From an uncultured Bacilli bacterium (GTDB taxonomy: Bacteria > Bacillota_I > Bacilli_A > RF39 > UBA660): 41,061 nt of DNA. Under the pieces are notes generated by a model. That model made no database searches, was not told the origin of the DNA, and worked only from the letters and a program-made list of their open reading frames with translations. Every line of letters begins with the position of its first letter. The first letter of the stretch is position 1. Of this stretch, positions 9,924 through 31,545 are shown piece by piece. Position numbers and translations under genes: made by a program. The stretch is from the NCBI GenBank assembly GCA_944358815.1, contig CALVRX010000002.1, positions 1-41,061 on the forward strand, written 5' to 3'.

Positions 9924-10325
9924 ATGAAAGAGTCATTTTGGGGTATATTTGTAGTTGGACTTGGTGTTTTATCTATCTTCTTTATTGTTTTGTTTCAAAA
10001 TTTAACTAATACAGATGAACATAATTCGCAACTTTTGAAAGAGGTTACGGAGGCTGCAATGTGGGATGCATTTGATTATGCTTCTTATAGAAAAAATGGG
10101 ACAGTACGTATTTACCGAGAAAAATTTGTAGAAAATTTTGTAAGAAGGTATGCTGAAAGTGCTAGTAGAATGAGAGAATATGTTATAAAGTTTTACGATA
10201 TTAATGAAAGCCCACCCAAAGTTAGCTTAAGTGTACAAAGCGGGGTTGTAGGTATTATGGGAAGAACTAGGATGACTTTTGATTTACAAAATCGAATTGA
10301 TGCAATTTTAGAGACTCCTTATTAA
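9924..10325 (+). CDS. Short single-pass pilin-like protein
   Basis: A 133-residue protein that starts MKESFWGIFVVGLGV with one membrane helix (about residues 6-26). An extracytoplasmic helical region with many Arg/Glu/Tyr follows, then a beta-prone end. Its MKE[S/A] start plus an immediate hydrophobic helix is shared with three other small proteins in this locus (14821, 15113, 15607), which suggests a family of minor pilin or pseudopilin subunits. The classical G|FxxxE prepilin cleavage site is not apparent. A strong AGGAGGTGAT ribosome site precedes it, and it lies 13 bases after the Cys-repeat gene. The pilin assignment is inference. Confidence 0.7.
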   Translation: MKESFWGIFVVGLGVLSIFFIVLFQNLTNTDEHNSQLLKEVTEAAMWDAFDYASYRKNGTVRIYREKFVENFVRRYAESASRMREYVIKFYDINESPPKVSLSVQSGVVGIMGRTRMTFDLQNRIDAILETPY

Positions 10326-10351
10326 AATAAAAGAAAAGAGAGGATGAGTAT

Positions 10352-11419
10352 ATGAATAATTTGGCGGCTTCGGCTAAAAAGTTTATGAAAAACAAAAATA
10401 TGATTACGATTGTTGGTGTTGTAGCAATTTTGATTTTACTGTATATTGGTTATAGTACACAAATCAATAATGCAGTAGAACCAATTTCTATTCCTGTAGC
10501 TACACAAACAATTCAACCAAAAACAGAGATAACTGATGATATGGTACAAGTAATTGATATGCCTAATGTTTCACTTAGTGATAATGTAATTAGGTCTAGA
10601 ACACAAATAGTTGGAAAATATTCAAATGTTAATTCTGTTATTCCTGAAGGTAGTATGTTTTATACAGATACCGTTATTGATGGGGATGAGCTTCCTGATG
10701 CTTCATTTGCAAAAGTTAAAGCTGGTGAAGTAGTTTATAATTTTCCAGTTGATATGGAAAGTACTTATGGTAATTCTATTTTTCCAGGAAATAAGATTGA
10801 TATTTATATGAAAGTTGGTGACGGTCGTGATGAGAAAATCATGATTGGGAAACTAATTGAAAATATCGAGGTATTAGCTGTTAAGGATTCTTCTGGTCGT
10901 GCAGTGTTTGAAGATACTAGTGAGACTAGAAATCCAGCTATGATGATTTTTGGTTTAAAGACTGATTTATATTTATTACTTAAGAAGGCTTCTTATATGG
11001 GTACTTTAGGTGTTGAACTTTATCCAGTACCACATGGTGGTAATGTAGATACTGAGGGTGCTACGCAAGTTTCTACACAACAATTAGTTGATTATATTGA
11101 AGCTCATTCAGTAAATATTCCAATTCCTGAAGAAACTACTGATGATCCATTATTACCAACACTTTCACAAACTGGTGGTCAAAGAAATACTGTAACAATT
11201 ACTTTCCCAGATGGTTGTGATGGTCAGTATACTTGTACTTATGTTAAGGATAATGGTAAATCACAAAGAGTTACTAAAAAGACACAAAATGTTGTTTATA
11301 CTGGTAATGGTAAATTAACAGCAACAGTTCAAGAAGAAAATGGTACAGCGCATTCAATTACAGTGGATATTCCATTAACTAATTCAACTAATTCAAATAC
11401 TTCAAATACTAATAATTAG
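10352..11419 (+). CDS. cpaB: CpaB/RcpC-like SAF-domain protein
   Basis: A 355-residue protein with one N-terminal membrane helix (about 18-36, IVGVVAILILLYIGY). A SAF domain follows (about 45-110, with VATQTIQPKTEITDDMVQ and the later PEGSMFYTD), then a second beta-rich region to about 240. The C-terminal ~100 residues are Thr/Asn/Ser-rich with a Cys pair (CDGQYTC). This is the architecture of the CpaB/RcpC Flp-pilus assembly protein, which lies outside the membrane. The following gene is the CpaF ATPase, the usual Tad order. It starts after GAGAGGATGAG. Confidence 0.82.
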   Translation: MNNLAASAKKFMKNKNMITIVGVVAILILLYIGYSTQINNAVEPISIPVATQTIQPKTEITDDMVQVIDMPNVSLSDNVIRSRTQIVGKYSNVNSVIPEGSMFYTDTVIDGDELPDASFAKVKAGEVVYNFPVDMESTYGNSIFPGNKIDIYMKVGDGRDEKIMIGKLIENIEVLAVKDSSGRAVFEDTSETRNPAMMIFGLKTDLYLLLKKASYMGTLGVELYPVPHGGNVDTEGATQVSTQQLVDYIEAHSVNIPIPEETTDDPLLPTLSQTGGQRNTVTITFPDGCDGQYTCTYVKDNGKSQRVTKKTQNVVYTGNGKLTATVQEENGTAHSITVDIPLTNSTNSNTSNTNN

Positions 11420-11428
11420 GAGTTTGAT

Positions 11429-13048
11429 ATGAATAATAATGTATTTGAACAAATAGATTTTGGTCCATTAAAACCTTATTTAGCGGATGATGATATAACC
11501 GATGTTTCTTATGATAACGGAGGTCAGATTCATTTAAAGACTTTATCAAAAGGTATATTTAGGATTGAAAATCCAGCTGTTAACGATGCTTTTATGGAAA
11601 AATTAGCCTTTCAGTGTTCAAATGTTATGGGAAAAACCTTTAATATGGCTCATCCTTTCTTGGATGCTGAAAGTGCTGAACTTCGTTTAGCTTTTATTCA
11701 TCCTTCAATTGCTCAAAATGGTATTGCTTGTGTTGTTCGTAAAACACCGGCGAAGATAAGGCTTCAGAAGGATAAGATAGTTGCTGATAAGTATGTTGAA
11801 TTAGATATTATTGATTTTTTAGAGCAATGTGTACTTGGACATTGTAATATAATTGCTTCCGGTGAAACTGGTTCTGGTAAGACAGAATTTATTAAGTATT
11901 TAGCTTCGAAGATAGCTGAAGACGAGAAAATTATTACTATTGAAGATACTTTGGAATTGCATTTGGATAAAATATTTCCACATCGCGATATTGTTGCAAT
12001 GAAGACAAATAATATTGCTTCTTATACAGAAATTTTGGAGGCTTGTATGCGACAAAATCCGAAATGGATTTTGCTTTCAGAGGTACGTAGTGCTGAGGCG
12101 GTATTAGCTGTTCGTAACTCTATTTCTTCTGGACATTATATTTTATCAACAATTCATGCTGATAAAGCATCTTCTATTCCTAACCGACTTTACAGTTTAC
12201 TTGAGACAAATCAAGATGTTAATCAATTTTTGAGTTCAATTTGTAGATATATACAGCTTGGCGTATATATTAGAGGTTATACTGATAAAGCAACCCATAA
12301 TTTTAAAAGAGAGATTGCAGAGGTTACGGAGTTTTATGTAACAGAAGATACTAATGAAGCTAGACATAATGTTATTTATAGAAAAGCGGCGGATGGTAAG
12401 GTTATTAGGAATAATCCAAGTCCTTATTTAATTGATTATTTGGAGGTTCAAGGGGTATTTTTACCAAAAGAGCTTCAGAATTTAGCTGGCGAACCATATA
12501 CAGATGCAGATTCATTAAAGAGTAATGCTGAAAATAATAAAAGTAATGGTGCAAGTGTTAATAGTGATAAAATAAATGCGAATGTACAAAAGCCGGTTAA
12601 TGGGGTAAATAATTCAGTTAATAATGGAAATTTCATGAATAATTCTAATATGGATAATAATGTTAATAAAGCTGCAATAAATAATTCTAATATGAATAAT
12701 AATGTAAATAAAACTTCAGTAAATAATTTTAATGCGAATAATAATGTTAATAAAGCTGCAATAAATAATTCTAATATGAGTAATAATGTAAATAGTAATT
12801 TTAATGTTGCTACTAATAATGTTGCTGGTTTTAATAATTCTAATGCGATTAATACAGGTGTTACTAGTAATTCATCTACATTTAATAATAGTGGCACAAA
12901 AGTTAATATGGCATCTAATAATTTAAATACTTCTAATATGAATAATAATGTAATGCCTAATCAAACGATAGTTTCTAGTAGTGGAATGATAAATAATCAG
13001 GTACAAAATTCTACTGGAAATTCGACTGTGGAAAATTTATTTGAGTAA
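11429..13048 (+). CDS. cpaF: CpaF/TadA-type secretion ATPase with Asn-rich tail
   Basis: A 539-residue cytoplasmic ATPase of the VirB11/CpaF/GspE family. Walker A GETGSGKT is at about 145-152, the Asp box IEDTLEL near 171, Walker B-like WILLSEVRSAEA near 213, and the His box STIHADKA near 240. It would power pilus assembly or secretion through TadB/TadC, encoded directly downstream. The catalytic core ends near residue 355. The remaining ~185 residues are an Asn/Ser/Val-rich low-complexity tail with a 14-residue tandem repeat, not part of the known family. The gene begins 9 bases after cpaB, with TTAGGAG as ribosome site. Confidence 0.92.
   Translation: MNNNVFEQIDFGPLKPYLADDDITDVSYDNGGQIHLKTLSKGIFRIENPAVNDAFMEKLAFQCSNVMGKTFNMAHPFLDAESAELRLAFIHPSIAQNGIACVVRKTPAKIRLQKDKIVADKYVELDIIDFLEQCVLGHCNIIASGETGSGKTEFIKYLASKIAEDEKIITIEDTLELHLDKIFPHRDIVAMKTNNIASYTEILEACMRQNPKWILLSEVRSAEAVLAVRNSISSGHYILSTIHADKASSIPNRLYSLLETNQDVNQFLSSICRYIQLGVYIRGYTDKATHNFKREIAEVTEFYVTEDTNEARHNVIYRKAADGKVIRNNPSPYLIDYLEVQGVFLPKELQNLAGEPYTDADSLKSNAENNKSNGASVNSDKINANVQKPVNGVNNSVNNGNFMNNSNMDNNVNKAAINNSNMNNNVNKTSVNNFNANNNVNKAAINNSNMSNNVNSNFNVATNNVAGFNNSNAINTGVTSNSSTFNNSGTKVNMASNNLNTSNMNNNVMPNQTIVSSSGMINNQVQNSTGNSTVENLFE
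12653..12778 (+). repeat. Three 42-base tandem repeats in the ATPase tail
   Basis: Three consecutive units encode NNVNKAAINNSNM-type 14-mers (middle unit NNVNKTSVNNFNA). Units 1 and 3 are almost identical in DNA. A partial fourth unit follows. Confidence 0.85.
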
Positions 13049-13059
13049 AGGAGGGTACT

Positions 13060-13965
13060 ATGACTATTTTAATTCTTTTAGCTGTTACGCTAATTGCTAT
13101 ATTTATTGTTTTATATCGAAATAATAATAGTAGTAATAATGTTTATAAGTTTATAAGTAAAAAATTTAGTGTAATTTATGATAAGTATGCTCCTTATTCA
13201 TTTAAGACAATTAGACAAAAAATTAAAGATCTGGGTCAAGAATATACTAAAAGACAGTATGCTATTCAAATTGTGGTGTTTGCTGTTGGTGCAGCAGTAA
13301 TTACATATTTATATTTTTATAATATTATTGTATCAATTTTGTATGCAATTTTGGCGGTAGCTGTTATTCCATATTTAACTTATTTACGTTGTAAAAGACT
13401 TTATAGTGAGTTTATTTTTGAACAAATCCAGGTTTATACAACTAATACAATTATGGAATTTGCGACTACTCAATCATTTGTTAAGGCTTTAGAGGGGGTA
13501 TATTCATCAAATGTGCTTGAAGATCCGGTAAAAGCCGATGTAAAGATGATGATTGATATGGCATATCAAAATGGTACTATTGAACAGTCTATTAGTTATA
13601 TGAATTCTAAGTATGATTTTTACATAGTTAGAAATATGCATCAACTTTTTTTACAAATTACTAATGAAGGTTCTAGGGATGCCGGAGAATCACTAGAAAA
13701 TATGAGTCAGGATATTGATATGCTAGTTGAAAGTGTATACCGAGATAGAATTGATAGAGCGACTTTCCATAAGAAGTTTTTACAGTTTGGTATTATTCTT
13801 TATTTAATGGTTATGCTTGTACAGTTTATGCTTGGTATGGAAACTTATGTGGAAATGCTTTCAGACTGGTGGGTACAATTATTACTTCATGGTATTATTT
13901 GGTTGAATACGTTCTTCCTTTTATCCGGAGAAAAATATTATAATGAAGATGTGGGGGCTGAGTAA
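13060..13965 (+). CDS. tadB: TadB-like inner-membrane platform protein
   Basis: A 301-residue polytopic protein of the type II secretion F / TadB kind. It has an N-terminal helix (about 2-20), a helix pair near 70-113, a long cytoplasmic region, and C-terminal helices near 245-290. The cytoplasmic part carries the pattern of T2SSF proteins (TNEGSRDAGESLENMSQDI). It would form the membrane platform that the upstream CpaF ATPase turns. AAGGAGGG precedes the ATG, and it runs straight into the TadC-like gene. Sequence similarity to TadB is inferred from topology, order and partner genes. Confidence 0.78.
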   Translation: MTILILLAVTLIAIFIVLYRNNNSSNNVYKFISKKFSVIYDKYAPYSFKTIRQKIKDLGQEYTKRQYAIQIVVFAVGAAVITYLYFYNIIVSILYAILAVAVIPYLTYLRCKRLYSEFIFEQIQVYTTNTIMEFATTQSFVKALEGVYSSNVLEDPVKADVKMMIDMAYQNGTIEQSISYMNSKYDFYIVRNMHQLFLQITNEGSRDAGESLENMSQDIDMLVESVYRDRIDRATFHKKFLQFGIILYLMVMLVQFMLGMETYVEMLSDWWVQLLLHGIIWLNTFFLLSGEKYYNEDVGAE

Positions 13966-13966
13966 T

Positions 13967-14761
13967 ATGAGTATGGGATTAATATTTATACTGATTGCAG
14001 TGATTATAATATTTTTACTAGAAGTTAATCATCATTTTAGTTCTAGTAAATTTATTAAAGAAACAGAGCCATATTTTCAAATTTTAATGGAAGATGATTA
14101 TGAGTTTTTACTTAAAATAAGATATGGCAGTGATGTAGATGTAAAGAAAATGTATGACCTTAGAGTGCGTAATGGTATTGTTGGAATTATCTTTTTCTTA
14201 TTTATTTTTCTACAGAATTTAACTTTTGCTTATATATTACTTTCGTTTTTATTAGGTTTTGCTTTATTTAAATTTCCTTATATGAAACTTAGTAATTATT
14301 ATAAACAGAATTTGAATAAAATTAATTTAATGCTTCCATACTATTTAAAGGGACTAGAAATATTGGTTCAGCATTATACTGTTCCAGTGGCTTTATCAAA
14401 GTCAATTGAAACGGCTCCTGAATTATTTAAGTCTGGATTAAAGGAATTGGTTGCGAAGATCGATGCTGGTGATTCTTCAGTACAACCTTATATGGATTTT
14501 GCACATGAATATCCAGTGCGTGATTCAATGCGTATGATGAGATTACTTTACCGTTTAGGTATTGGTAGTCAGCAAAATAAACAGGAACAATTGCTTATGT
14601 TTTCAAGAACCATTTCTGCTTTACAGAATAAAGCACGTGAGCAAAAGTACAAGGAACGTCTAGAAAAGATGGAAAATAAAACTATGATGATGCTTTTCTG
14701 TACAGGTGGTGGAATTTTAGGATTTTTACTTTTGTCAATGATGATGATGATGAGTTATTAA
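13967..14761 (+). CDS. tadC: TadC-like inner-membrane platform protein
   Basis: A 264-residue second platform protein: N-terminal helix (about 4-20), helix pair near 65-110, a helical cytoplasmic region (about 115-240) with Gln/Lys-rich helices, and a C-terminal helix packed with Met. The order ATPase-TadB-TadC matches Tad loci. The frame extends to an ATG at 13943, but ATG 13967 begins directly after the TadB stop with GGGGGCTGA ahead of it and is preferred. The gene ends this transcription unit; the pilin candidate downstream has its own promoter. Confidence 0.78.
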   Translation: MSMGLIFILIAVIIIFLLEVNHHFSSSKFIKETEPYFQILMEDDYEFLLKIRYGSDVDVKKMYDLRVRNGIVGIIFFLFIFLQNLTFAYILLSFLLGFALFKFPYMKLSNYYKQNLNKINLMLPYYLKGLEILVQHYTVPVALSKSIETAPELFKSGLKELVAKIDAGDSSVQPYMDFAHEYPVRDSMRMMRLLYRLGIGSQQNKQEQLLMFSRTISALQNKAREQKYKERLEKMENKTMMMLFCTGGGILGFLLLSMMMMMSY

Positions 14762-14784
14762 GTATAGTAAAAAAAAATAAATTA

Positions 14785-14793
14785 TGCTATAAT
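14785..14793 (+). promoter_or_regulatory. Extended -10 promoter of the pilin candidate
   Basis: TGCTATAAT forms an extended -10 element, followed by AGGAGGGTAGGTGAT and the ATG at 14821. It gives the small pilin-like gene its own transcription start. Confidence 0.6.
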
Positions 14794-14820
14794 GAACAAT
14801 AGGAGGGTAGGTGATAGTGA

Positions 14821-15057
14821 ATGAAGGAAGCAGCAGGAGAGGCAAACTTAACAGTTGTTGCAATTATCTTAATCGGTGTTATCGTTGCTGTTGTTACTCC
14901 ACTTGTCAATAACTTAATGAGTAATACTGCAGAACGTGCTTGTTGTACAGATGCAGGTGGTATATGGACTGGTGGAAAGTGTGATCCAACATATGCTGAT
15001 ATGGGAGCATATAATGCTTGTGTTGAAAAGTCTAACAATACATCTGGTACTGAATAA
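14821..15057 (+). CDS. Small major-pilin-like protein
   Basis: A 78-residue protein that opens MKEAAGEANLTVVAIIL and continues as one hydrophobic helix to about residue 33. A short extracytoplasmic part with four Cys (ACC, GKC and NAC) follows. Size, N-terminal helix and position directly after TadC fit a Flp/Tad-type pilin subunit, with possible cleavage near AAG|E, although the standard prepilin motif is not exact. The Cys pattern CC-x11-C with a Gly-rich spacer echoes the repeats of the large secreted protein at 6800. It is flanked by its own promoter and terminator, so it is probably made in excess over its neighbours. Confidence 0.72.
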   Translation: MKEAAGEANLTVVAIILIGVIVAVVTPLVNNLMSNTAERACCTDAGGIWTGGKCDPTYADMGAYNACVEKSNNTSGTE

Positions 15058-15064
15058 GTTTAAC

Positions 15065-15087
15065 ACTTGCTACTTAGCAAGTTTTTC
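15065..15087 (+). terminator. Terminator after the pilin candidate
   Basis: ACTTGCT (15065-15071) pairs with AGCAAGT (15076-15082) over a four-base loop and is followed by five T. Partial read-through would supply the downstream pilin-like genes at a lower level. Confidence 0.75.
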
Positions 15088-15112
15088 TTGGATAATAAGG
15101 CGGTGAATTTAA

Positions 15113-15610
15113 ATGCGGGAGAGTATAGGTAGCGTATTTTTATACAATATGGTTATTTTGTTTATCATAATTGTATTTGGTTTGATTTCGGCTACTGTTA
15201 GTTATTACAAGGCATTTAAGGTAAACGAACGAATACTTTTGATAATAGATAAATTTGAAGGTTATAATCGTTTATCTGAAGAGGAAATCGTAAATTATTT
15301 AAAAAGTTTAGGTTATTCTTCTGAACCTAGTGGTCAAGAGGCTTGCCCTAAGGAAAAAGATGGGGGTACATTGGTAACAGCTAGAGATGCTAGACATTTA
15401 TACTGTGTTTATTATTATGCTGATGACCGTGGAAGTAATGAGTCTGGTATGACTAATGGCGATAATCAACCAATATATTATAATTATGCTGTAACTAGTT
15501 ATATTTATATACAGTTACCAATTGCTGGCGCATTTAAATTACCGGTTTTTACTAAAGGAGAGAGAATTTATAATTTTAGCGATAGTCAAAGTCAAGGTGG
15601 TAGAATATGA
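15113..15610 (+). CDS. Pilin-like protein A (pseudopilin candidate)
   Basis: A 165-residue protein starting MRESIGSVFLYNMVILF, with one helix to about residue 27. A conserved segment (YYKAFKVNERILLIIDKFEGY) follows, then an extracytoplasmic domain with two Cys (EAC and YCVYYY). It is clearly related to the next gene: both share the N-terminal helix, the AFK/GFK-x-N-x-I-L motif, a Gly-Tyr pair, a single Cys-Val-Tyr strand and a terminal strand ending in LPV/IPV. They are probably minor pilins at the tip or base of the filament. The start is preceded by AAGGCGGTG. Its stop overlaps the next start by four bases. Confidence 0.72.
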   Translation: MRESIGSVFLYNMVILFIIIVFGLISATVSYYKAFKVNERILLIIDKFEGYNRLSEEEIVNYLKSLGYSSEPSGQEACPKEKDGGTLVTARDARHLYCVYYYADDRGSNESGMTNGDNQPIYYNYAVTSYIYIQLPIAGAFKLPVFTKGERIYNFSDSQSQGGRI

Positions 15611-16083
15611 AAGAGGCAATAGCAAATGCTGGGGTATTTAATTTAATTATTATTTTTGTAATAGTTTTAATTCTTTTGTTTATTGGTTCTCTTTCTTATT
15701 CTCGTGGCTTTAAAGCTAAGAATAAAATATTAGAAGAAATTGAAAAAGATCAAGGTTATACTAGTGATACAGAGGCAAGAATAGATGATTGGCTTGGTAA
15801 TATTGGTTACCGTGTTAATACTGGTTTGAATAGTAATTCAGATGATTGTCCAGCTTCAGCTGAGGGTAATGGTGGCAGTCATGGAAAATTGGTAAGTGGT
15901 TCAGCTCTTTATCAATACTGTGTTTATGAATTTGATACTTGCACTTCTGGTTCGGATAATTCTAAGTGCGGTAAATATTATAGAGTTATTGCTTATATGT
16001 ATTTTGATATACCTTTACTTGGTGGTTTACTTAAGATACCAGTAAATGGAGAGTCTGTGATATTTAATGAAATTACTAGTTAG
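15607..16083 (+). CDS. Pilin-like protein B (pseudopilin candidate)
   Basis: A 158-residue paralogue of the preceding protein, starting MKEAIANAGVFNLIIIF, with a helix to about residue 30. The shared YSRGFKAKNKILEEIEKDQ motif follows, then an extracytoplasmic region with four Cys (DDC, YC, DTC and KC). The ATGA overlap with the upstream gene implies translational coupling and similar amounts of the two products. Together with the genes at 9924 and 14821 it makes four short proteins with the same type of N terminus. No known family name is claimed. Confidence 0.72.
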   Translation: MKEAIANAGVFNLIIIFVIVLILLFIGSLSYSRGFKAKNKILEEIEKDQGYTSDTEARIDDWLGNIGYRVNTGLNSNSDDCPASAEGNGGSHGKLVSGSALYQYCVYEFDTCTSGSDNSKCGKYYRVIAYMYFDIPLLGGLLKIPVNGESVIFNEITS

Positions 16084-16095
16084 GATGGTGGAATC

Positions 16096-17103
16096 ATGAA
16101 TGTTTTAATTGTTAATAAGTTTCGCGATGCTTTGGCTAATTTAGATATTGAAGTTATCAAAGAGTTGGAAGGGGAATTTACAGTTGATGAAATAATCAAT
16201 ACTTTTCAAAATTTCTTTTTTCAAAAAATGATTATCGATGTGACTGCAATAAAAAATTATAAAGAGGTAAAAACTTTACAGCAGCTTTCTTTATCTTTAG
16301 ATGTGGATAAGGTTATTTTACTTCTTGATGGTTCACCTGAAACCACTGATCCTGAGTATTTATCGGATTTAATTTCTATGGGAATATATAATTTTACGAT
16401 GAATGTTGATGGTGTTAAATGGCTTATTGATCATCCTAATAGTTATCGCGATGTGGCACAATATCATCAATTAGATACAACACATGGTTCTTCTTATACT
16501 AATGCAGAATCTGTTTCTTATAGTCAAAATTTTAAGAAGTGTTCTGTAATATGTTTTAAGGATATTACACCTAGTGCGGGAGCGACTACTTTAATATATA
16601 TTGCGAAAAAGCAGTTGCAACGTAATTATGATGTGGTGGCAATTGAAATTGATAAACATGATTTTATGTATTTCGATGAAGATAAAATGTACAGTATAAC
16701 TAGTGGTGAGATTGGCAATACTATTTCTAAATATAGTTCTTCTGATATTATTTTAGTGGATGGAAATGGTAGCCCTGTAATAGATACTTTTGCAAGTGAA
16801 GTTATTTATTTATTAGAACCATCTAAAATACAGTTAAATAAATTATTAGCACGGGATCCAAAGGTGCTTGAGAGAAATAAAAATAAGAAAATTGTGTTAA
16901 ATCAGTGTATGCTTAGTGAACAAGATGTTTCGGATTTTGAATTTGAAACTGGTTTAAAGGTATATGCTAAAATACCACCACTTAATGACCAAAGCGATGA
17001 AAATGTGGCTTTAGATAATTTTTTTGTTAAACTTGGATTTTCAAAGCAAGGTAGTTCTAGCGGTGGAGAAGAAAAAAAAGGAATTAAAGGGTTATTTAAG
17101 TAA
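16096..17103 (+). CDS. TadZ/CpaE-like ParA-family protein with degenerate P-loop
   Basis: A 335-residue cytoplasmic protein with two parts. An N-terminal receiver-like domain (about 1-115, with VILLLDGSPETTD) is followed by a ParA/MinD-like domain whose P-loop position reads ITPSAGATT near residue 157, lacking the usual KGGxGK lysines. A second-half segment SSDIILVDGNGSP corresponds to Walker B. Atypical Walker A motifs are known for TadZ/CpaE proteins, which place Tad pili in the cell. Its position after the pilin-like genes fits that role. The protein ends in a basic tail (KKGIKGLFK). A terminator overlaps the stop. Confidence 0.75.
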   Translation: MNVLIVNKFRDALANLDIEVIKELEGEFTVDEIINTFQNFFFQKMIIDVTAIKNYKEVKTLQQLSLSLDVDKVILLLDGSPETTDPEYLSDLISMGIYNFTMNVDGVKWLIDHPNSYRDVAQYHQLDTTHGSSYTNAESVSYSQNFKKCSVICFKDITPSAGATTLIYIAKKQLQRNYDVVAIEIDKHDFMYFDEDKMYSITSGEIGNTISKYSSSDIILVDGNGSPVIDTFASEVIYLLEPSKIQLNKLLARDPKVLERNKNKKIVLNQCMLSEQDVSDFEFETGLKVYAKIPPLNDQSDENVALDNFFVKLGFSKQGSSSGGEEKKGIKGLFK

Positions 17104-17143: not shown

Positions 17144-17172
17144 TTGACAAATTTTTGAATAAAATGTATATT
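17144..17172 (+). promoter_or_regulatory. Strong promoter opening the T4SS-like half
   Basis: TTGACA (17144-17149) and TATATT (17167-17172) are 17 bases apart. AAGAGGAGG precedes the ATG at 17201. This is among the best sigma-A-type promoters in the window, and it drives the two VirB2-like genes. Confidence 0.75.
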
Positions 17173-17200
17173 TAATATATAGATTAAGAGGAGGTTTATT

Positions 17201-17569
17201 ATGAATTTAATCAGTGCTTTGTATTGCGAAAGTGTTATATCAGGAGGTATTCCAAATGGTATTGGTAATGCTATTCATTTAATTGTTGTAGCAATTCAAA
17301 TAGTAGTACCAATATTACTTATAATTTGGGGTATGATTGACTTCGCTAAGGCTATAATTGGACAAGATGAGGATAAAATCAAAGCAGGTCAAAAGTTATT
17401 TATGAAAAGACTTATTGCTGCTGTATTAGTATTCCTAATTGTAACAATTGTTCAACTTTTAATTAATGTAGCTGCTAGTGTGGCAAATGGAGATGGTTCT
17501 GGTACAGATGTTAATAATGTATGGAATTGTGCTAAAGAGCTAATTAGTGGTAAAGCATCAGGTGCGTAA
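17201..17569 (+). CDS. VirB2/T4SS-pilin-like two-helix protein 1
   Basis: A 122-residue protein with two membrane helices (about 26-50 and 70-92) joined by a charged loop (FAKAIIGQDEDKIKAGQKL) and a short polar tail with one Cys. This helix-loop-helix with a basic cytoplasmic loop is the shape of VirB2/TrbC and the broader T4SS-pilin family. No clear signal-peptide cleavage site is seen. A strong promoter and ribosome site point to high expression, as expected of a filament or channel subunit. The next gene is a paralogue, and the C-terminal end of the gene at 18103 has the same module. Confidence 0.72.
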   Translation: MNLISALYCESVISGGIPNGIGNAIHLIVVAIQIVVPILLIIWGMIDFAKAIIGQDEDKIKAGQKLFMKRLIAAVLVFLIVTIVQLLINVAASVANGDGSGTDVNNVWNCAKELISGKASGA

Positions 17570-17599
17570 ATAAAATAGTTTAGAAAGTGGGAATAAGAT

Positions 17600-17992
17600 A
17601 TGGATTTAATTTATATGTTAGATGCAGCTGATTCGACTTTATGTGAAGGTATTTTGATACCTAATGTTATATTTAATGCAGTGTCAACTATTATTAAAGG
17701 TATTAAAATTATAGTTCCGGTATTACTTATAATATGGGGTATGATGGATTTTGCAAAGTCTGTAGTTGCTAAAAAAGAGGAAGATATAAAAAAATACCAA
17801 AAGGCTTTTGTTTCACGTCTTATTTCTGCTTTAATTGTATTTTTGATTATATTTATTGTACAACTCGCCGTTAATTTAGTTTCTGGTGTTGAGGATTCTA
17901 CAAATTCTGAAGGCACTACAGTGAGTGATATTTGGAGCTGTAGTAAGAAATTTATTAATGGTGTGGATACAACTGAACAAACAGAAGAATAA
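17600..17992 (+). CDS. VirB2/T4SS-pilin-like two-helix protein 2
   Basis: A 130-residue paralogue of the upstream protein. The core KIIVPVLLIIWGMMDFAKS is nearly identical, followed by the charged loop (KKEEDIKKYQKAF) and a second helix. It starts with a short Cys-containing N-terminal region and ends in an acidic tail. The ribosome site (GAAAGTGGGAAT) is weaker than for the first copy, so it may be the minor subunit. A terminator follows directly, so the two paralogues form a short bicistronic unit. Confidence 0.72.
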   Translation: MDLIYMLDAADSTLCEGILIPNVIFNAVSTIIKGIKIIVPVLLIIWGMMDFAKSVVAKKEEDIKKYQKAFVSRLISALIVFLIIFIVQLAVNLVSGVEDSTNSEGTTVSDIWSCSKKFINGVDTTEQTEE

Positions 17993-18020
17993 GAGTTATC
18001 TTTTATGATAATTCTTTTTT
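17993..18020 (+). terminator. Terminator after the VirB2-like pair
   Basis: GAGTTATC (17993-18000) pairs with GATAATTC (18007-18014), with one G-U pair and a six-base loop, followed by six T. Confidence 0.75.
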
Positions 18021-18040
18021 GATTTTTTGGACAATGATGT

Positions 18041-18068
18041 TTGTTGATTTATAAATTTATGTTATAAT
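18041..18068 (+). promoter_or_regulatory. Promoter of the VirB6-VirB4 unit
   Basis: TTGTTG (18041-18046) and TATAAT (18063-18068) are 16 bases apart, and TG at 18060-18061 makes an extended -10. It precedes the gene at 18103. Confidence 0.6.
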
Positions 18069-18102
18069 GAATATGTATGTTATGTTTAAGGTAGGGGAAT
18101 CT

Positions 18103-19062
18103 ATGAAAAAATATCTTATATCTGTTTTTTTAATTATTGGAATTCTTTTTATTAATATAAACGGAGTTAATGCTGCTAATATCCAAGGTGGTGGTGGAGG
18201 ATCAGATCCTGATTCTCTTAAAACTGAAGATGGCTATGCTAGATGTGTATATGCTGGATATGGAAGAATATATTCAACTATTCAACTTACCATTACAGTT
18301 TATAAAGATACAGATGGTGTTGTTCGTTCTTATGCGGATATGCAGTGTGCTAAGAAAGGTGAAGATACTTTATCTCATTGTGATATTCATAATTATAATG
18401 ATATTTTCCATAATGCAGATGCTACATTATATAGTAAATTTCACGATAATAACGGTTGGAAATGTTATGATGGTATATATGCTACAACTGGAAATGGTGG
18501 TAGAATTGAATTGATAATAGATGAAGCAGCAGGAACACATTTCGAATTGTTAGATGATGAATCAGAAGTAGTTAATGAAAATGATTCTATAGATACTAGT
18601 CATGATGGTGATAGTGTAGTAGATGTTGAGGATCATTATTCTGATTCAGACTCAGGTTCAAGCACTGGTACTGGTACTGGTGACGCGGCTGTAGATGCTA
18701 TTTTGGATTGGGCAAATGGTCAAGGATATGGTAATAATATTAGGGCAGTAGGTGATCCTTGTAATATTATTAATAATAATTTAAAAGACATTTTAAGTAG
18801 TGTGTTTTGGCTTATCAGTGTTGCTGGAATTATATTAGTTGTTGTTATGACGGCGATTAGTTTTATTAAAGCGATTGTTGGTTCTGATGATGAAAAGTTA
18901 AGAAATGCTTTAAGCCATTTAATAACAAGAGTTATCGTAGTTATTATTTTACTTTTATTACCGATGCTTTTACAATTTGTTATTAATCTAGTAAATGATA
19001 GCTTTGAAGGTCAAGTTAAAATTGGTGATGATGGAAACGTCTTCTGTGATATAACGAGATAA
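18103..19062 (+). CDS. Exported domain fused to a VirB2-like two-helix module
   Basis: A 319-residue protein in three parts. A signal peptide (MKKYLISVFLIIGILF, cleavage near NAA) leads into an extracytoplasmic Cys-containing domain (about 25-140), then an acidic Ser/Asp/Gly linker (about 145-205). The C-terminal part has two helices joined by FIKAIVGSDDEKLRNAL, matching the FAKAIIGQDEDKIKAGQ loop of the small proteins at 17201 and 17600. It thus looks like a pilin-module protein carrying an extra exported domain. The frame is open from 18067, but that ATG lies inside the -10 box; ATG 18103 has AGGGGA ahead of it. Confidence 0.75.
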   Translation: MKKYLISVFLIIGILFININGVNAANIQGGGGGSDPDSLKTEDGYARCVYAGYGRIYSTIQLTITVYKDTDGVVRSYADMQCAKKGEDTLSHCDIHNYNDIFHNADATLYSKFHDNNGWKCYDGIYATTGNGGRIELIIDEAAGTHFELLDDESEVVNENDSIDTSHDGDSVVDVEDHYSDSDSGSSTGTGTGDAAVDAILDWANGQGYGNNIRAVGDPCNIINNNLKDILSSVFWLISVAGIILVVVMTAISFIKAIVGSDDEKLRNALSHLITRVIVVIILLLLPMLLQFVINLVNDSFEGQVKIGDDGNVFCDITR

Positions 19063-19077
19063 AAGAGGAGGTACTAT

Positions 19078-21318
19078 ATGGAAATTGTACAAAATCTTTT
19101 TAGGACTTTGATGTTCTTTTTGGATAATATTGTATACGGTTTGATTCCAACAATTTATAAGCTATTTGTATATTTAGCTAATTTAAATTTGTATGGTAAT
19201 GATTCAGGTAATCCTATTCAAGAAATTGTTAATCATATATATGTATTACTTGGTATATTTATGCTATTTAAAGTTAGTTTTTCCCTTTTACAATATATTG
19301 TTGATCCTTCTTCTTTTAGAGATAGTTCGAAAGGAATGGGAAAACTAGTTACAAATGTATTGGTAGCTATGGTTTTATTAGTAAGTGTCCCTTTTATTTT
19401 CGAAAAGGCTATGGAGTTGCAAGCAGTAATTGTAGAAAATAATGTAATTGGTCAATTAATTTTAGGTCAAGACATGGGAGGAAGTAGTGATAATACTGTT
19501 GATGTGATAAACACTAAAGCAAAGGATTTACAATTTCTGATGTTTGGGGCTTTTTATTCTTTAAATCCTGAAGTAACTAATAATGAAACATTTGCTGGAT
19601 GTGCTGGTACAAGTGGAGTGTTTGGATCTATAGATATGGCAACGGAATCTTGTTTGACCGCTTTAGATAGCGCCTTAAGCGGCTATGAAGACGCATCGGC
19701 TAATAATGTTACTTTATATAGTTTCTTTAAGCATGGTTCAGATGGATTAGATGAGAGAAAATTTGGTGATTTTGATAAATTACTTTGGTGGAAAGTTGAT
19801 GGACAGTATGTTATTAATTATTTACCTTTTATTTCGACAGCAGTTGGGATTTATGTAGTATTTTTATTGATTACATTTTGTGCTGATATTGCACTTCGAG
19901 CTATTAAATTATTATTTTTACAAATGATTGCTCCAATTGCTATAGTGTCTTATATAGATCCTAAAGAGTCAATTAGTAATGGTAAAATGAGTGCATGGAT
20001 AAAAGAAACAGCTTCAACTTATTTTTCATTATTTATCAGATTAGCAACTGTTTTCTTAGTTGTAATGTTAGTTTCATTAATTGCATCAAGTGTTTTAGCT
20101 GACGGTGGTTATATTTCTGGTATGATTAATCCACAAGAGTATAATATATGGATATATTTATTCTTAATTATTGGTGCTTTTATGTTTGCTAGACAAGTTC
20201 CTAAAATAATAGAATCTATTTTCGGAATTAAAGGTTCTGGTAATCTTAGTCTTAATCCATTTAAAACTGTTAGTAATTTCTTATCTACTCCAATTGTAGC
20301 AGCTGGTGGTGCGGCAGTTGGTGGTGCTTTAGGAGCAGCTGCAGCTAATACAATAGCAGCTGCAGCACCGATTACTAATAATATAAAAACTAGATTGGAT
20401 AATAAGTTTGGTAATAATTCCGCGCTTATAAATTTTAGAAATAAAGTTAGTAATGTTAAAAATGCTGTTAAACCTTTTGCTTCCGCCGCTTCGCCTTGGT
20501 TAGGTATTGGTACTGGTGCTGTTAGTGGTGCTGTTCGAGGTGCTCGTGCTGGATATAGCGATAAAAATATTTTAAGCGGTGCCAATAAAGCTCGTTTGGG
20601 TACAAATGATGCAAGATTACGTAGGGATGTTTATGGTACTGAATATCCGGATCCAAAAACTGGTCAGATGAAAAAGGCTTATTCTTCGACAGAAAGAATG
20701 CAAGATGCTGTTCGAAATTTTGCAGGTATAAGGAATAAAGATGGTGGAATTGGTAAGATTGATAAACAGATTAAGGATCTTTCTAAGAGTATATCAGATA
20801 AGAGTATGGAAGAATCAGGTTTAAGAGAACAAATGTCTAAATTTAAAGGAAAATTTGATGAAGATCAATTAAAAGCAGCTCTTCATTCTGATACTTATGA
20901 GGAATATTTAAGGTCTCAAAGTGTTAATGTTCCAACTGCACGTACTATTAATGAAGATATTAATAGAAGAGTACCAGAAGTTTCTGCTTCATCTTCTAAT
21001 ACAACTTCAAGTAGTACCACAACTATTAATCCAACAGTTGTAGTATCATCTAATTCAGATGTCAATAGAGAGGTGACTAATGTGAATAATGTACCATTAT
21101 ATGCTCAAAATAATGCTCAAAATACAACTCAAAATAATGCTCAAAATACTCAATCATTTACATTACCAGCTGGTATGTTAGATAAGGAATCATTTGAAGA
21201 ATATAAGAGATATAATGCGGCTATTAATAGTGTTAATGAGGAACAACATAAATTAGAGGATGATGTCTCTTTATATCAAAAAGTTTCTGATATAAAACAT
21301 AATGCGAAAAAGCAATAA
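19078..21318 (+). CDS. VirB6/TrbL-like polytopic channel protein
   Basis: A 746-residue protein. Hydrophobic helices lie at about 8-33, 55-78, 97-116, 245-290, 313-340 and 355-373. The block ALRAIKLLFLQMIAPIAIVS is characteristic of TrbL/VirB6 proteins, which form the inner-membrane channel of type IV secretion systems. After the last helix come a Gly/Ala-rich segment (about 400-435) and a ~300-residue soluble tail with charged helices and a Thr/Ser/Asn/Gln-rich stretch (NNAQNTTQNNAQNTQ). An extracytoplasmic loop of about 125 residues with two Cys lies between helices 3 and 4. AAGAGGAGG precedes the ATG. It heads the VirB6-PrgI-VirB4 order typical of Gram-positive T4SS. Confidence 0.85.
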   Translation: MEIVQNLFRTLMFFLDNIVYGLIPTIYKLFVYLANLNLYGNDSGNPIQEIVNHIYVLLGIFMLFKVSFSLLQYIVDPSSFRDSSKGMGKLVTNVLVAMVLLVSVPFIFEKAMELQAVIVENNVIGQLILGQDMGGSSDNTVDVINTKAKDLQFLMFGAFYSLNPEVTNNETFAGCAGTSGVFGSIDMATESCLTALDSALSGYEDASANNVTLYSFFKHGSDGLDERKFGDFDKLLWWKVDGQYVINYLPFISTAVGIYVVFLLITFCADIALRAIKLLFLQMIAPIAIVSYIDPKESISNGKMSAWIKETASTYFSLFIRLATVFLVVMLVSLIASSVLADGGYISGMINPQEYNIWIYLFLIIGAFMFARQVPKIIESIFGIKGSGNLSLNPFKTVSNFLSTPIVAAGGAAVGGALGAAAANTIAAAAPITNNIKTRLDNKFGNNSALINFRNKVSNVKNAVKPFASAASPWLGIGTGAVSGAVRGARAGYSDKNILSGANKARLGTNDARLRRDVYGTEYPDPKTGQMKKAYSSTERMQDAVRNFAGIRNKDGGIGKIDKQIKDLSKSISDKSMEESGLREQMSKFKGKFDEDQLKAALHSDTYEEYLRSQSVNVPTARTINEDINRRVPEVSASSSNTTSSSTTTINPTVVVSSNSDVNREVTNVNNVPLYAQNNAQNTTQNNAQNTQSFTLPAGMLDKESFEEYKRYNAAINSVNEEQHKLEDDVSLYQKVSDIKHNAKKQ

Positions 21319-21333
21319 AAAAGGGGTGATTAG

Positions 21334-21663
21334 ATGCAGTTTTTAATTCCGGCAAATTCAAAAAAGTCTATGCTTATATTTGGTGCTTTTACAACATTTG
21401 ATTTAATTTTATTTGCTAGTGGTTTAGGTGTGTCTATTATTATGTTACTTATTATAGCACCGAATAGTTTTGCAACAGCGGTTATTGATTTATTACCTGG
21501 TTTAATATGTGGATTTTTGGTTTTACCAATTCCTAATTATCACAATTGTATGGTAATATTAGTAGAAATGTATAAATTTTTTACATCTAGACAAAAATTT
21601 ATTTGGAAAGGATGGTGTGTGAAAGATGAGTTCAAAGAAGAATCGGAGCAAGTACACAAATGA
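21334..21663 (+). CDS. PrgI/VirB3-like membrane protein
   Basis: A 109-residue protein with two adjacent helices (about 14-42 and 48-68), a start of MQFLIPAN and a short basic tail (FTSRQKFIWKGW). Size, topology, the early IP and position directly before VirB4 match the PrgI family, the Gram-positive counterpart of VirB3. It would link VirB4 to the membrane channel. The end of the gene overlaps the next start by 38 bases, so translation of the two is probably coupled. AAAGGGGTGAT is the ribosome site. Confidence 0.78.
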   Translation: MQFLIPANSKKSMLIFGAFTTFDLILFASGLGVSIIMLLIIAPNSFATAVIDLLPGLICGFLVLPIPNYHNCMVILVEMYKFFTSRQKFIWKGWCVKDEFKEESEQVHK

Positions 21664-22177
21664 TTTTGTACCGATAAGGTCGATTACAAATGGTGTTATT
21701 ATTTGTGAGAATAATGAGAAGGTTACAGGAGTAAAAATATTTCCTAGAAATATTTTTATTCTTGAACCTGATGTTCAAAATATGATTATTTCCAATTTGA
21801 AAAATGTTTATAATTTAATTGATTATGAATTTTGGATTATTGTAGCTGATAGACCTGTTGATATAACTTCATATTTGTCAAGATTACAATTACTTTATAA
21901 TTCACAAACTAATCCAGTAAAAAGGAAGCTAATTTTAGAGGATATTAATAAAGCTAATATGTTTACAACGACAATGAATGTTGTGGATACAGAATATTAT
22001 TTACTTTTTAAAGAGAAAGATATGGATAAAATTCAAAAGAAGATAAGAAATTTAATCCAGGCTTTTGCGAATGCGGGATTGAATGCGGCACAAACATCTA
22101 ATGATGATTTGAGAATTATTTTGGATAATTTCTTAAACGGCGGAATGACTACTTCGTTTGGGACGGTGATGAGTTAA
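21626..22177 (+). CDS. virB4: VirB4 N-terminal domain as a separate gene
   Basis: A 183-residue soluble protein whose start (FVPIRSITNGVIICENN) and following alpha/beta region match the layout of the N-terminal domain of VirB4/TraE-type ATPases, which contacts VirB3/PrgI. It ends in TAA at 22175-22177, and the ATPase part begins at ATG 22177 in another frame, sharing one base. Together the two products give about 777 residues, the usual VirB4 length. The clean stop-start overlap suggests a true two-gene arrangement with coupled translation; a frameshift or base-call error is the alternative. No strong ribosome site precedes 21626; reading is probably coupled to PrgI. Confidence 0.7.
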   Translation: MSSKKNRSKYTNDFVPIRSITNGVIICENNEKVTGVKIFPRNIFILEPDVQNMIISNLKNVYNLIDYEFWIIVADRPVDITSYLSRLQLLYNSQTNPVKRKLILEDINKANMFTTTMNVVDTEYYLLFKEKDMDKIQKKIRNLIQAFANAGLNAAQTSNDDLRIILDNFLNGGMTTSFGTVMS

Positions 22178-23982: not shown

Positions 23983-24675
23983 TTGGCTTTACCGACGGCA
24001 TTTATAAAGGCAAAGAATGCTATTTCTAAGGGTGTACAGTCTGCAAGAACGGCTAGAGCGGTAAATGCTGCCACCTCGAACTCAAGTGAACAAGGTGTAA
24101 ACTCTTTTTTTAGTATTTTTAAACTTCCTTTGATGATTGTTATTCCCATAGCTGGGACAATTGCGGCTTTTATTTTTGTGGTTTTTCTGGCTATTGTTGC
24201 TATTCCACAAATTTTAGTTGGTACTATTTTTGGCGGTGGTTCACTTTCTAGTAATATCAATGGTGGTGTTAGTGGTGGACCTGTTGGACCAGGTTTAGCA
24301 TCATCGGTTGTCGAATGTGCTAGACAACAAATTGGTAAGCCTTATGTATGGGGGGCTGAAGGTCCTAATGCTTTTGACTGTTCTGGTTTAGTTACTTACT
24401 GTTATAGACAAGCGTTAGGCGTTGAAGTTCCACATCAGACTAAAAAATTGGCAAAATCTTCGGCGTTTAGAACGGTTTCATCTGTGGATCAGCTTTCACC
24501 TGGTGATATTATTTTGGATGGTGGAAACAATATTAGTCATGTTGGAATATATTCTGGTAATGGTACGGTGATACATGCACCTGAACCGGGTAGTAATGTT
24601 ACAGAGATTTCTTTGGAGAGATTTCAAAATGCGGTTGCAGGTTTTGAAACTTATAGGACATATATTGGTCAGTGA
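23983..24675 (+). CDS. Membrane-anchored NlpC/P60 peptidoglycan hydrolase
   Basis: A 230-residue protein with a basic cytoplasmic N terminus, one membrane helix at about 48-75 and a Gly/Ser linker. An NlpC/P60 (C40) domain follows from about 100: catalytic Cys in FDCSGLV near residue 133, His in SHVGIYSG near residue 186, and a following IHAPEPG. It would cut cell-wall peptide stems to open a path for the T4SS-like apparatus, the VirB1 role in Gram-positive systems. The start is TTG at 23983, six bases after GGAGGT; no ATG lies nearby in frame. The context between VirB4 and another hydrolase supports the role. Confidence 0.88.
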   Translation: MALPTAFIKAKNAISKGVQSARTARAVNAATSNSSEQGVNSFFSIFKLPLMIVIPIAGTIAAFIFVVFLAIVAIPQILVGTIFGGGSLSSNINGGVSGGPVGPGLASSVVECARQQIGKPYVWGAEGPNAFDCSGLVTYCYRQALGVEVPHQTKKLAKSSAFRTVSSVDQLSPGDIILDGGNNISHVGIYSGNGTVIHAPEPGSNVTEISLERFQNAVAGFETYRTYIGQ

Positions 24676-29172: not shown

Positions 29173-31545
29173 ATGAAATTAAAGTTTAGAGCGTCAAAAA
29201 AAGATTGGATGATTTTTGGGGGTTATTGTGTTGTTTTACTTTATTTTGTGGCGATTGCTCTTTTAAATATTATTCAATTTGCAAAAGGTGATTTAGATCA
29301 TCCTTTTCATGGTTTAAATCCATTTCCAGCTTTTTCATCTGATTATATCGGGTTGACATTTACTTGTTATATAATTGCTTTAGTCGCTAGTATATTTAGT
29401 GTTTCTGATCGCTTTTTTGATAGAGAAAAAGGGTTTGGTTTTTCAACAGAAGCTAAAAAGTCATCTAAAGGTTATTCTAGATGGACTTCAGCTGATGAAA
29501 TGAAAAAGGAACTTACAATGGTTAAAGTACAGGCGCCTGAAGCAGATGCTGGTGGATTACCACTTATTAATGACGGTAAAAAAATGTGGGTTGATGATGG
29601 TGAAGCTCATACTTTGATTATTGGTTCTACTGGTGCTGGTAAAACACAAGTGGCTATTTTTCCATTGGTTCATTCACTTGCTAAACATAATGAGTCTATG
29701 ATTATTACGGATCCTAAGGGTGAGATTTATGAAACAACAGCTGAGATGCTTAGGAAAAGAGGATATAATGTTGTTTTATTAAATTTCCGTAATCCACAGC
29801 AAGGTAGTGGATGGAATCCGCTTCATTTACCATATAAATATTATAAAGAGGGTAATTCGGATAAGGCTAACGAACTTACGGACGACCTTGCTATGAATAT
29901 TTTGTATGATGAAAATGCGCAAAATAGCGATCCGTTTTGGGAGAAAACTTCTGCAGATTATTTTTCTGGTATATGTTTGGGGTTATTTGAAGATGCTAAA
30001 GAGGAAGAGATTAATTTAAATAGTGTCAATTTATTTACGACAATTGGCGAGGATACATGTGGTCCTAAGTCAAATTACGCTAATGAATATTTTAAAACTA
30101 AAGATCCAACTTCACCATCTTATATAAGTGCTTCATCAACTATTTCAGCACCTGATGAGACTAGGGGAAGTATTTTATCAGTATTTAAGCAGAAAATAAG
30201 ATTGTTTGCCGCTCGTGAAAATTTATCAGAGATGCTTTCGCATAGTGATTTTGAATTTGAAGATATTGGTAGAAAAAAGACCGCAGTATTTATTGTTATA
30301 CAAGATGAGAAAAAGACTTATCATTCTTTAGTGACTATTTTTCTTAAACAGTGTTATGAGACATTAGTGGATTATGCCCAAAAATGTGGTGGAAAACTTC
30401 CTTATAGGACAAATTTCTTACTTGATGAGTTTGCGAATATGCCACCTTTAAAAGATGTCGATACAATGGTATCAGCAGCCAGAAGTAGAAAGATGAGATT
30501 TTTCTTTGTTATTCAGAACTATGCACAACTAGCAGAAGTTTATGGTAAAGAAAAAGGAGATACTATTAGAGGTAACTGTACAAATATTGTATATTTGATC
30601 AGTACAGAGCTTGCAGCATTAAAAGAAATAAGTGAGATGTGCGGAGAAGTTAAAGTTAAGACCGATAAAAAAGATAAAGATGGTAAAGCTATTGAAGAAA
30701 CTAGGCCACTTATTACGGTTAGTGATTTACAGAAGTTAAAAATGGGAGAAATTATTTTACTTCGTCTTCGTATGGATCCTTTTAGAACGAAACTTAAATT
30801 AAATTGGCAAATTGATTGGGGAGAAGCTGATAAATGTGATAAGGCTACTTATCCAACTAGAGAAAAACAACCTTTGCATGTGTTTGATTTAAAGAGCTTT
30901 GTTGATAAGAAAAGAGCAGAAAAAAGGGAAGAGAGTATGAATAAGCTGATTAGTCAAGTGATGCCTAATATGAAGCGTAATACAGGACTTCCTGGAATGA
31001 ATAATCAGGCTCCAACGAGAAAACCAATGTCTATGGAAGATATGTTAAAAAATATCGATAAGGCTGTGGAAAAATTAGAAAAAGAAGAGCAAAAGAAACA
31101 AGCTGGTGTTATGGGTAAAGGAACTAATGTTGGAAGAATAACTCCAGTGAAAGTACCGGCAAGTATGGCTGGTGATAGTTCTATTGATCCGTCAAAAGTC
31201 AATGCGGAAGTTAAAAGAGAAACTAATAAAAAAGATGTGGATAAGGTTGAAAAGAAGAGCACAAAGCCAGTGATTAATGGAGCCGATTTTGCAGCTAAGA
31301 TTACAAGTAAAGTTAATAAAACGGTATTAGAAAAAGAACATGAAAAGAAAGTTAAAGCTGAGCATAAGCCGGATATAAAAGTGCCAGTTCAAAAAGAGAA
31401 TAAAAGTGTAGAGAAGGCGCCAAAGAAAGAAGAAAAAATTATTTACAAAACTGAGTCAAGTGTTAAAGAGGATAAAAAATATGATCCAGATTATGTGACT
31501 GATGATCAATTTTTCGATGATTTTTTTGCGGATGACGACGATTAA
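29173..31545 (+). CDS. virD4: VirD4/TraG-type coupling ATPase with long charged tail
   Basis: A 790-residue type IV coupling protein. Two N-terminal helices (about 14-36 and 57-77) are followed by Walker A GSTGAGKT at 151-158, MIITDPKGEIYE near 176, Walker B FLLDEFANMPP near 415, and the RSRKMRFFFVIQNYAQL segment typical of VirD4/TraG. It would select DNA or protein substrates and feed them into the VirB4/VirB6 channel. The family core ends near residue 580. The last ~200 residues are Lys/Glu-rich low-complexity helix ending in FFDDFFADDDD, unusual in length and possibly a substrate or partner dock. It has its own promoter and is followed at once by a PH-domain gene. Confidence 0.92.
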   Translation: MKLKFRASKKDWMIFGGYCVVLLYFVAIALLNIIQFAKGDLDHPFHGLNPFPAFSSDYIGLTFTCYIIALVASIFSVSDRFFDREKGFGFSTEAKKSSKGYSRWTSADEMKKELTMVKVQAPEADAGGLPLINDGKKMWVDDGEAHTLIIGSTGAGKTQVAIFPLVHSLAKHNESMIITDPKGEIYETTAEMLRKRGYNVVLLNFRNPQQGSGWNPLHLPYKYYKEGNSDKANELTDDLAMNILYDENAQNSDPFWEKTSADYFSGICLGLFEDAKEEEINLNSVNLFTTIGEDTCGPKSNYANEYFKTKDPTSPSYISASSTISAPDETRGSILSVFKQKIRLFAARENLSEMLSHSDFEFEDIGRKKTAVFIVIQDEKKTYHSLVTIFLKQCYETLVDYAQKCGGKLPYRTNFLLDEFANMPPLKDVDTMVSAARSRKMRFFFVIQNYAQLAEVYGKEKGDTIRGNCTNIVYLISTELAALKEISEMCGEVKVKTDKKDKDGKAIEETRPLITVSDLQKLKMGEIILLRLRMDPFRTKLKLNWQIDWGEADKCDKATYPTREKQPLHVFDLKSFVDKKRAEKREESMNKLISQVMPNMKRNTGLPGMNNQAPTRKPMSMEDMLKNIDKAVEKLEKEEQKKQAGVMGKGTNVGRITPVKVPASMAGDSSIDPSKVNAEVKRETNKKDVDKVEKKSTKPVINGADFAAKITSKVNKTVLEKEHEKKVKAEHKPDIKVPVQKENKSVEKAPKKEEKIIYKTESSVKEDKKYDPDYVTDDQFFDDFFADDDD

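Follow-up and report, generated by a model that had tools for sequence, protein, structure and literature searches.

VirB2-like two-helix modules in a type IV secretion locus of Bacilli, one of them joined to a variable exported domain

Three adjacent genes of an uncultured Bacilli bacterium, here called A, B and C, encode one and the same two-helix module, and in C the module is preceded by a signal peptide, an exported domain and an acidic linker. We lean, with modest conviction, towards A and B being abundant VirB2-like subunits and C a rarer subunit that displays variable domains by way of the same hairpin. The genes lie in the window, by which we mean the whole stretch of DNA that was analysed (41,061 nucleotides, contig C2 of an incomplete genome of 1.05 Mb that is 63% complete); the three genes, their signals and the Tad-like and secretion genes around them are on its + strand. 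The records of its nearest relatives are labelled "uncultured Bacilli bacterium", with a few labelled "Tenericutes" or "Firmicutes".

Gene order and context of the locus

About 30 congeneric loci (some cut by contig ends) share the order A-B-C-VirB6-PrgI-TrsD-VirB4, and the family's other genera have it in most sampled loci, with between one and five module proteins mid-block. Directly 3' of C is a gene for a VirB6/TrbL-like polytopic protein (19078..21318; NF045890 at 1.9e-11 and TrbL_4 at 2.1e-4, both below cut-off), and it is followed by PrgI/VirB3-like (21334-21663), TrsD-like (21626-22177) and VirB4 (22177-23961) genes, each corresponding to a part of NF045975. These three (21334-23961) are consecutive parts of what is a single 894-aa VirB4 in Mycoplasma ICEs. 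A frameshift or sequencing error as the source of the split was rejected, since the split recurs across the genus and the family, its second part being about 594 aa long, and TrsD plus VirB4 is a known arrangement that matches the split seen here (PMC12102498). Further downstream are an NlpC/P60 protein, a possible VirB1-type wall hydrolase (23983..24675; PF00877, 1.4e-21), and a VirD4-type coupling protein (29173..31545; NF045973 at 314 bits, above cut-off, and PF02534).

Upstream of A is a Tad-like block (9924..17103) of DUF5411, CpaB, CpaF/VirB11-type ATPase, TadB-, TadC-, pseudopilin- and CpaE-like genes, in which DUF5411, CpaB and the ATPase were assigned by family and the TadB, TadC, CpaE and pseudopilin labels were given from gene order alone, an order that is conserved. 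The Tad-like operon and the type IV secretion system (T4SS) with its coupling protein make up one conserved block (9924-31545) in many genera of one Bacilli family. Three small genes within it (14821-16083), each with one N-terminal hydrophobic helix, resemble Tad pilins or pseudopilins by inspection and may be such, and profile libraries gave no convincing family match for them. Ahead of the block, a large exported protein of 1036 aa (6800-9910) with tandem Cys-rich repeats of the CKTEADANRLGVDWNPKGKYCCPVGTKY type has no Pfam family, and its homologues occupy the same place in relatives.

The locus is a fixed block beside housekeeping genes, with a uracil-DNA-glycosylase-family gene on one side and the RNase R and SmpB genes on the other, and it is not an ordinary ICE. 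A search for the relaxase family PF03432 gave no match in the window's own genome (63% complete), and the 9 of 40 congeners that had a match had it on a contig other than the locus contig. A mobile or viral origin was rejected, as no relative was found in plasmids (searched with protein A) or in viral contigs (searched with protein A1). Among the sampled relatives, matches to protein A were confined to genomes of the genus and were found in nearly all of them, and a search of 395 genomes with the module profile added 49 more from the same family and just two from elsewhere in the class. Two genomes of the genus, L095 and L096, contain a different module relative of 150 aa with neither of the flanking cysteines described below; L096 also has a VirB4-like gene (793 aa), so this relative may belong to a mobile element.

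The two-helix module and its nearest family

A (122 aa, 17201..17569) is a VirB2-like two-helix subunit whose hairpin is flanked by Cys9 and Cys110, and B (130 aa, 17600..17992) is a second such subunit, flanked by Cys15 and Cys114; the pilin-type module of C extends from Cys232 to Cys327 (18760..19047). A sequence-only reading had placed the loops FAKAIIGQDEDKIKAGQ in A, FAKSVVAKKEEDIKKYQ in B and FIKAIVGSDDEKLRNAL in C between the same pair of helices, and from them had proposed one module common to the three proteins. The loops are where it put them, and the common module was borne out both by profile-profile comparison and by a six-frame search of the genome, which, with A alone as the query and E up to 10, returned only A, B and C (B at 48% identity and 3.5e-30, C at 24% identity and 1.5e-5). 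When profiles of the three modules (from 33 A, 33 B and 42 C sequences) were compared, the match probability was 100% for A against B (E 4.9e-44), 98.6% for the A module against the C module (E 6.3e-16) and 97.6% for the B module against the C module (E 3.6e-12). Control profiles of TadB-, TadC-, PrgI-, VirB6- and pseudopilin-like proteins from the same loci reached at most 4.5%, and two other comparisons were weak, at 19% and 30%. Because the module profiles score far above these membrane-protein controls, the resemblance of A, B and C is one of homology rather than of shared hydrophobicity. By the same comparison, a fourth module copy in VirB6 was not supported (4.5%).

On comparison with T4SS-pilin families, the nearest curated family proved to be the VirB2-type T4SS_pilin (Pfam PF18895), and the three proteins did not scatter into unrelated families, the outcome that would have told against the sequence-only reading. 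PF18895 gave weak matches (E up to 0.01) in 41 of the 44 A/B proteins and 39 of the 59 C-type proteins, and in both sets it was the leading family, above any other. Taken singly, the window's proteins scored 16.7 (A), 20.6 (B) and 22.2 bits (C), below the curated cut-off of 26.6 bits, and in a genome-wide scan C reached 26.4-26.6 bits, at the cut-off, and was counted as over it; that these scores lie below or at the cut-off weighs against the reading we favour. The model of the Mycoplasma ICE pilin-like protein (NF045849) also picked up C, at 5.5e-5 and below the model's cut-off. The module profiles did not confirm a further weak PF18895 match, at G000:C12:9310 (L220).

The place of the genes beside those for VirB3, VirB4 and VirB6, in conserved order, is that of a VirB2-type gene, and so is the fold predicted for A and C, a two-helix hairpin with a short loop, which AlphaFold2 models as two long helices in each. 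The confidence of these models is moderate, and this counts against the favoured reading, as does the absence of VirB2 from the PDB fold searches with A and C, which returned long-helix or unrelated matches and no solved VirB2, a result that carries little weight for a hairpin. PDB sequence searches likewise returned nothing relevant and no solved VirB2-type pilin, and the missing matches were not read as a sign of a new fold. A and B show no obvious cleavable leader by inspection, and the want of the long cleaved leader of classical VirB2 is a further point against the reading. A pilin of the Tad/Flp type would have a prepilin-peptidase site followed by just one N-terminal hydrophobic helix, which does not fit the two-helix hairpins of A, B and C.

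The module also has a cysteine on each side of the hairpin, one ahead of helix 1 and one beyond helix 2. The two are invariant in 44 A/B and 25 C proteins, and the pair occurs in 112 of the 115 module proteins from the genus and in 64 of 68 from the family's other genera. The readable PF18895 proteins of other Bacilli families are short and have no downstream cysteine. Because the head of C precedes the module and the wall- or peptide-acting domains (NlpC/P60, C39-type) of its relatives follow it, both ends of the hairpin are placed outside, and the loop inside, in the orientation that we infer; the loop carries several lysines and arginines, as expected of a segment inside. With both cysteines outside, the pair could form a disulfide. 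DsbB and VKOR were absent from all 40 of 40 genomes, which weighs against the favoured reading and leaves the disulfide staple a hypothesis.

The A-B transcription unit and the parts of C

Upstream of A is a promoter, TTGACA-17-TATATT (17144..17172), that has 11 of the 12 consensus bases, and in 33 of 33 loci the region upstream of A has a match of at least 10 of 12 with a spacing of exactly 17, a match reached by 3.8% of order-1 Markov shuffles of these regions. The ribosome-binding site of A, AGAGGAGG (17187..17194), was recognised by its sequence and is similar in relatives. After B comes an intrinsic terminator, a hairpin followed by T6 (17993..18020), and a terminator stands there in 26 of 34 loci, compared with no more than 3 after each of nine other genes of the block and 1 of 34 for shuffled B regions; the promoter and terminator counts are drawn from related loci and are not independent events. 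The sequence of the terminator hairpin varies between genomes with its pairing kept. Judged by these signals, A and B are a transcription unit of their own, conserved from promoter to terminator. Because a strong promoter and a terminator bound this unit and C lies outside it, the plainest expectation is that the cell would produce more of A and B than of C and the secretion proteins. The suggestion of the sequence-only reading that the three could include one major and one minor subunit is refined by this, as A and B both look abundant, belonging to one strongly promoted and terminator-bounded unit.

This unit bears on the main alternative, possible though on the whole doubtful, namely that the hairpin is a channel or platform subunit of the T4SS and a membrane anchor that never polymerises, A and B surrounding the translocon as a ring in the membrane, C proteins being T4SS-associated surface proteins anchored by way of that ring, and the Tad-like system making the sole pilus. 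The Tad-like genes are linked in the block, and this linked system could be the only pilus, which also counts against the reading we favour; a prepilin peptidase, one per genome, is encoded in nearly every genome; VirB2-type pilins can be required for transfer without visible pili (PMC12857230); and C-type proteins are found also away from T4SS genes. However, the separate strong promoter and the terminator of A-B suggest a product beyond the needs of a ring, and the arrays of divergent module genes resemble the VirB2 arrays of Patescibacteria (PMC12102498).

The longest open reading frame of C begins at 18067, and its true start is probably the second ATG, at 18103 (MKKYLIS...), because a ribosome-binding site is present there, Met13 is nearly invariant among 59 homologues, and the ATG at 18067 overlaps a TATAAT. 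The probable coding sequence (18103..19062) is thus one of 319 aa, and the TATAAT belongs to a candidate promoter with a weak -35, TTGTTG-16-TATAAT (18041..18068); the TATAAT before C recurs in most relatives and loci. The parts that the sequence-only reading had described in C were confirmed in their order: a signal peptide, a Cys-containing exported domain that is variable and predicted to be beta-rich (residues 57-151 of the longest frame, 18235..18519), an acidic linker predicted to be disordered (residues 154-205, 18526..18681, pLDDT below 50), and the two-helix module, homologous to A and B and with both cysteines invariant in the 25 C proteins.

C genes precede virB6 as one to three tandem copies, and some genomes have further ones at other sites, away from T4SS genes. 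Across 780 pairs of C proteins, identity averages 42.5% in the module and 24.5% in the remainder, with the module the more similar part in 98% of pairs, and between tandem copies in one genome the module is 77-97% identical and the remainder, i.e., the exported domain, 26-38%. Codon alignments of tandem C genes change abruptly near the module boundary, and in several pairs identity at the third positions of identical codons reaches 96-100% within the module. Because of this abrupt boundary and the near-identical synonymous sites, the alignments point to recent homogenisation of the C modules by gene conversion or recombination, with heads that have diverged or been replaced. The heads fall into many groups, and that of the window's own C is a singleton among the heads compared.

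The sequence-only reading had suggested that one of the three could be a capped or initiating subunit. The position of C outside the A-B unit, its variable copy number and its divergent exported domains fit a displayed subunit of minor abundance. A role for C at the tip or in initiation, VirB5-like but fused to a VirB2-like body and docking on VirB6 before A and B are added, strikes us as rather unlikely. C does lie directly before virB6, no separate VirB5 candidate was noticed, and known VirB5 docks on VirB6 and ends up at the pilus tip (PMC12857230), but a unique initiator needs neither up to three array copies nor paralogues elsewhere, and the present data fit lateral display equally well.

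Fusion of the module to other domains was observed in several relatives. An NlpC/P60 domain follows the module in L197 (94.4 bits) and precedes it, as a weak match, in L078, and C39-like peptidase domains follow it in L207 and L159. PF18895 is above cut-off in L159, L197 and L192, including in chains that also hold an exported domain. Such fusion is not confined to the window's family, because L192, which is from another Bacilli family, is also fused: there, a 511-aa exported protein (L192:169-1701) has repeated beta-type segments and then a PF18895 module above cut-off, the latter without the downstream cysteine. In L207 (7868-12500), two adjacent giant module proteins (938 and 575 aa) have exported parts both before and after the hairpin, and the second of them has its C39-like peptidase domain at its end. 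That A, B and C are unrelated to pilins, being small channel- or transporter-type hairpins that lie in the operon by chance, is very improbable. The matches that speak for it, to MscL, 7TM and transporter models, are weak and below threshold, involve few members and shift from protein to protein, whereas T4SS_pilin is matched by 41 of 44 A/B proteins. In the inspected genera the genes also have a T4SS setting, and fused relatives score above the pilin cut-off.

On the favoured reading of A and B as VirB2-like subunits and C as their displaying counterpart, the locus would encode a T4SS that is fixed in the chromosome, has no relaxase linked to it and is joined to a Tad-like pilus system. In the membrane, A and B would form hairpins whose two ends face outwards and whose charged loop faces inwards, and VirB6, PrgI/VirB3 and VirB4 would probably draw them out of the membrane to build a short filament or the stalk of a channel. 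C would join this assembly at a lower dose, perhaps at the tip, along the filament or only around the channel, through its homologous hairpin, which would serve as a socket, and its signal peptide, variable exported domain and acidic linker would place a recognition or wall-acting domain outside. In tandem C genes, the socket half would be homogenised by recombination as the displayed half diverges.

Known systems and the meaning of the locus

According to a 2025 review of T4SSs, Gram-positive systems lack VirB2 pilins, the one exception being the recently recognised case of Patescibacteria (PMC12857230). In Patescibacteria, arrays of 2-11 divergent VirB2-like genes occur with homologues of PrgI, TrsD and VirB4, mostly without relaxases (PMC12102498), and the locus described here is the same kind of array in Bacilli. 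As there (PF18895 and related profiles), it is a divergent array in a monoderm, near PrgI-TrsD-VirB4 (PMC12102498). Unlike there, it is linked to a Tad-like operon, its modules carry the flanking cysteine pair, some members have large exported domains, and A-B is a separate transcription unit. The Mycoplasma ICE pilin-like protein (Mbov_0395 family, NF045849) is also a small hairpin encoded near VirB4, but differs in its ICE context.

The VirB2-type paralogues of the Bartonella and Anaplasma T4SSs are tandem and diversifying, and their variation is thought to alter contacts at the surface (cited in PMC12102498), but these bacteria are Gram-negative and it is the pilin itself that varies, whereas here the pilin-like part is constant and the fused domain varies. 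In T4SSs of the pCF10 type, the surface adhesin PrgB and the wall hydrolase PrgK tie adhesive or wall-acting extracellular domains to a monoderm T4SS (PMC12857230); PrgB is anchored by sortase and PrgK by an ordinary membrane anchor, whereas here the anchor is the pilin-like hairpin itself. No description of such an array with exported-domain fusions was found in the open-licence literature.

A broader idea, which we put forward tentatively and think somewhat improbable as it stands, is that in a monoderm lineage the T4SS pilin hairpin serves as a general display socket, one constant hairpin kept uniform by gene conversion, through which many swappable domains (recognition folds and NlpC/P60-, C39- and CHAP-like domains) are carried as minor subunits of the A/B filament for contact with neighbouring cells or host surfaces. 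A family-wide, chromosomal VirB2-like array in Bacilli would be the second case after Patescibacteria. The fusion of module and domain, in which the outer half diverges and the constant half is homogenised, leads to the testable idea of a secretion pilus with changing recognition or wall-cutting heads, and, if this is true, these bacteria would maintain a constant/variable repertoire on a secretion pilus.
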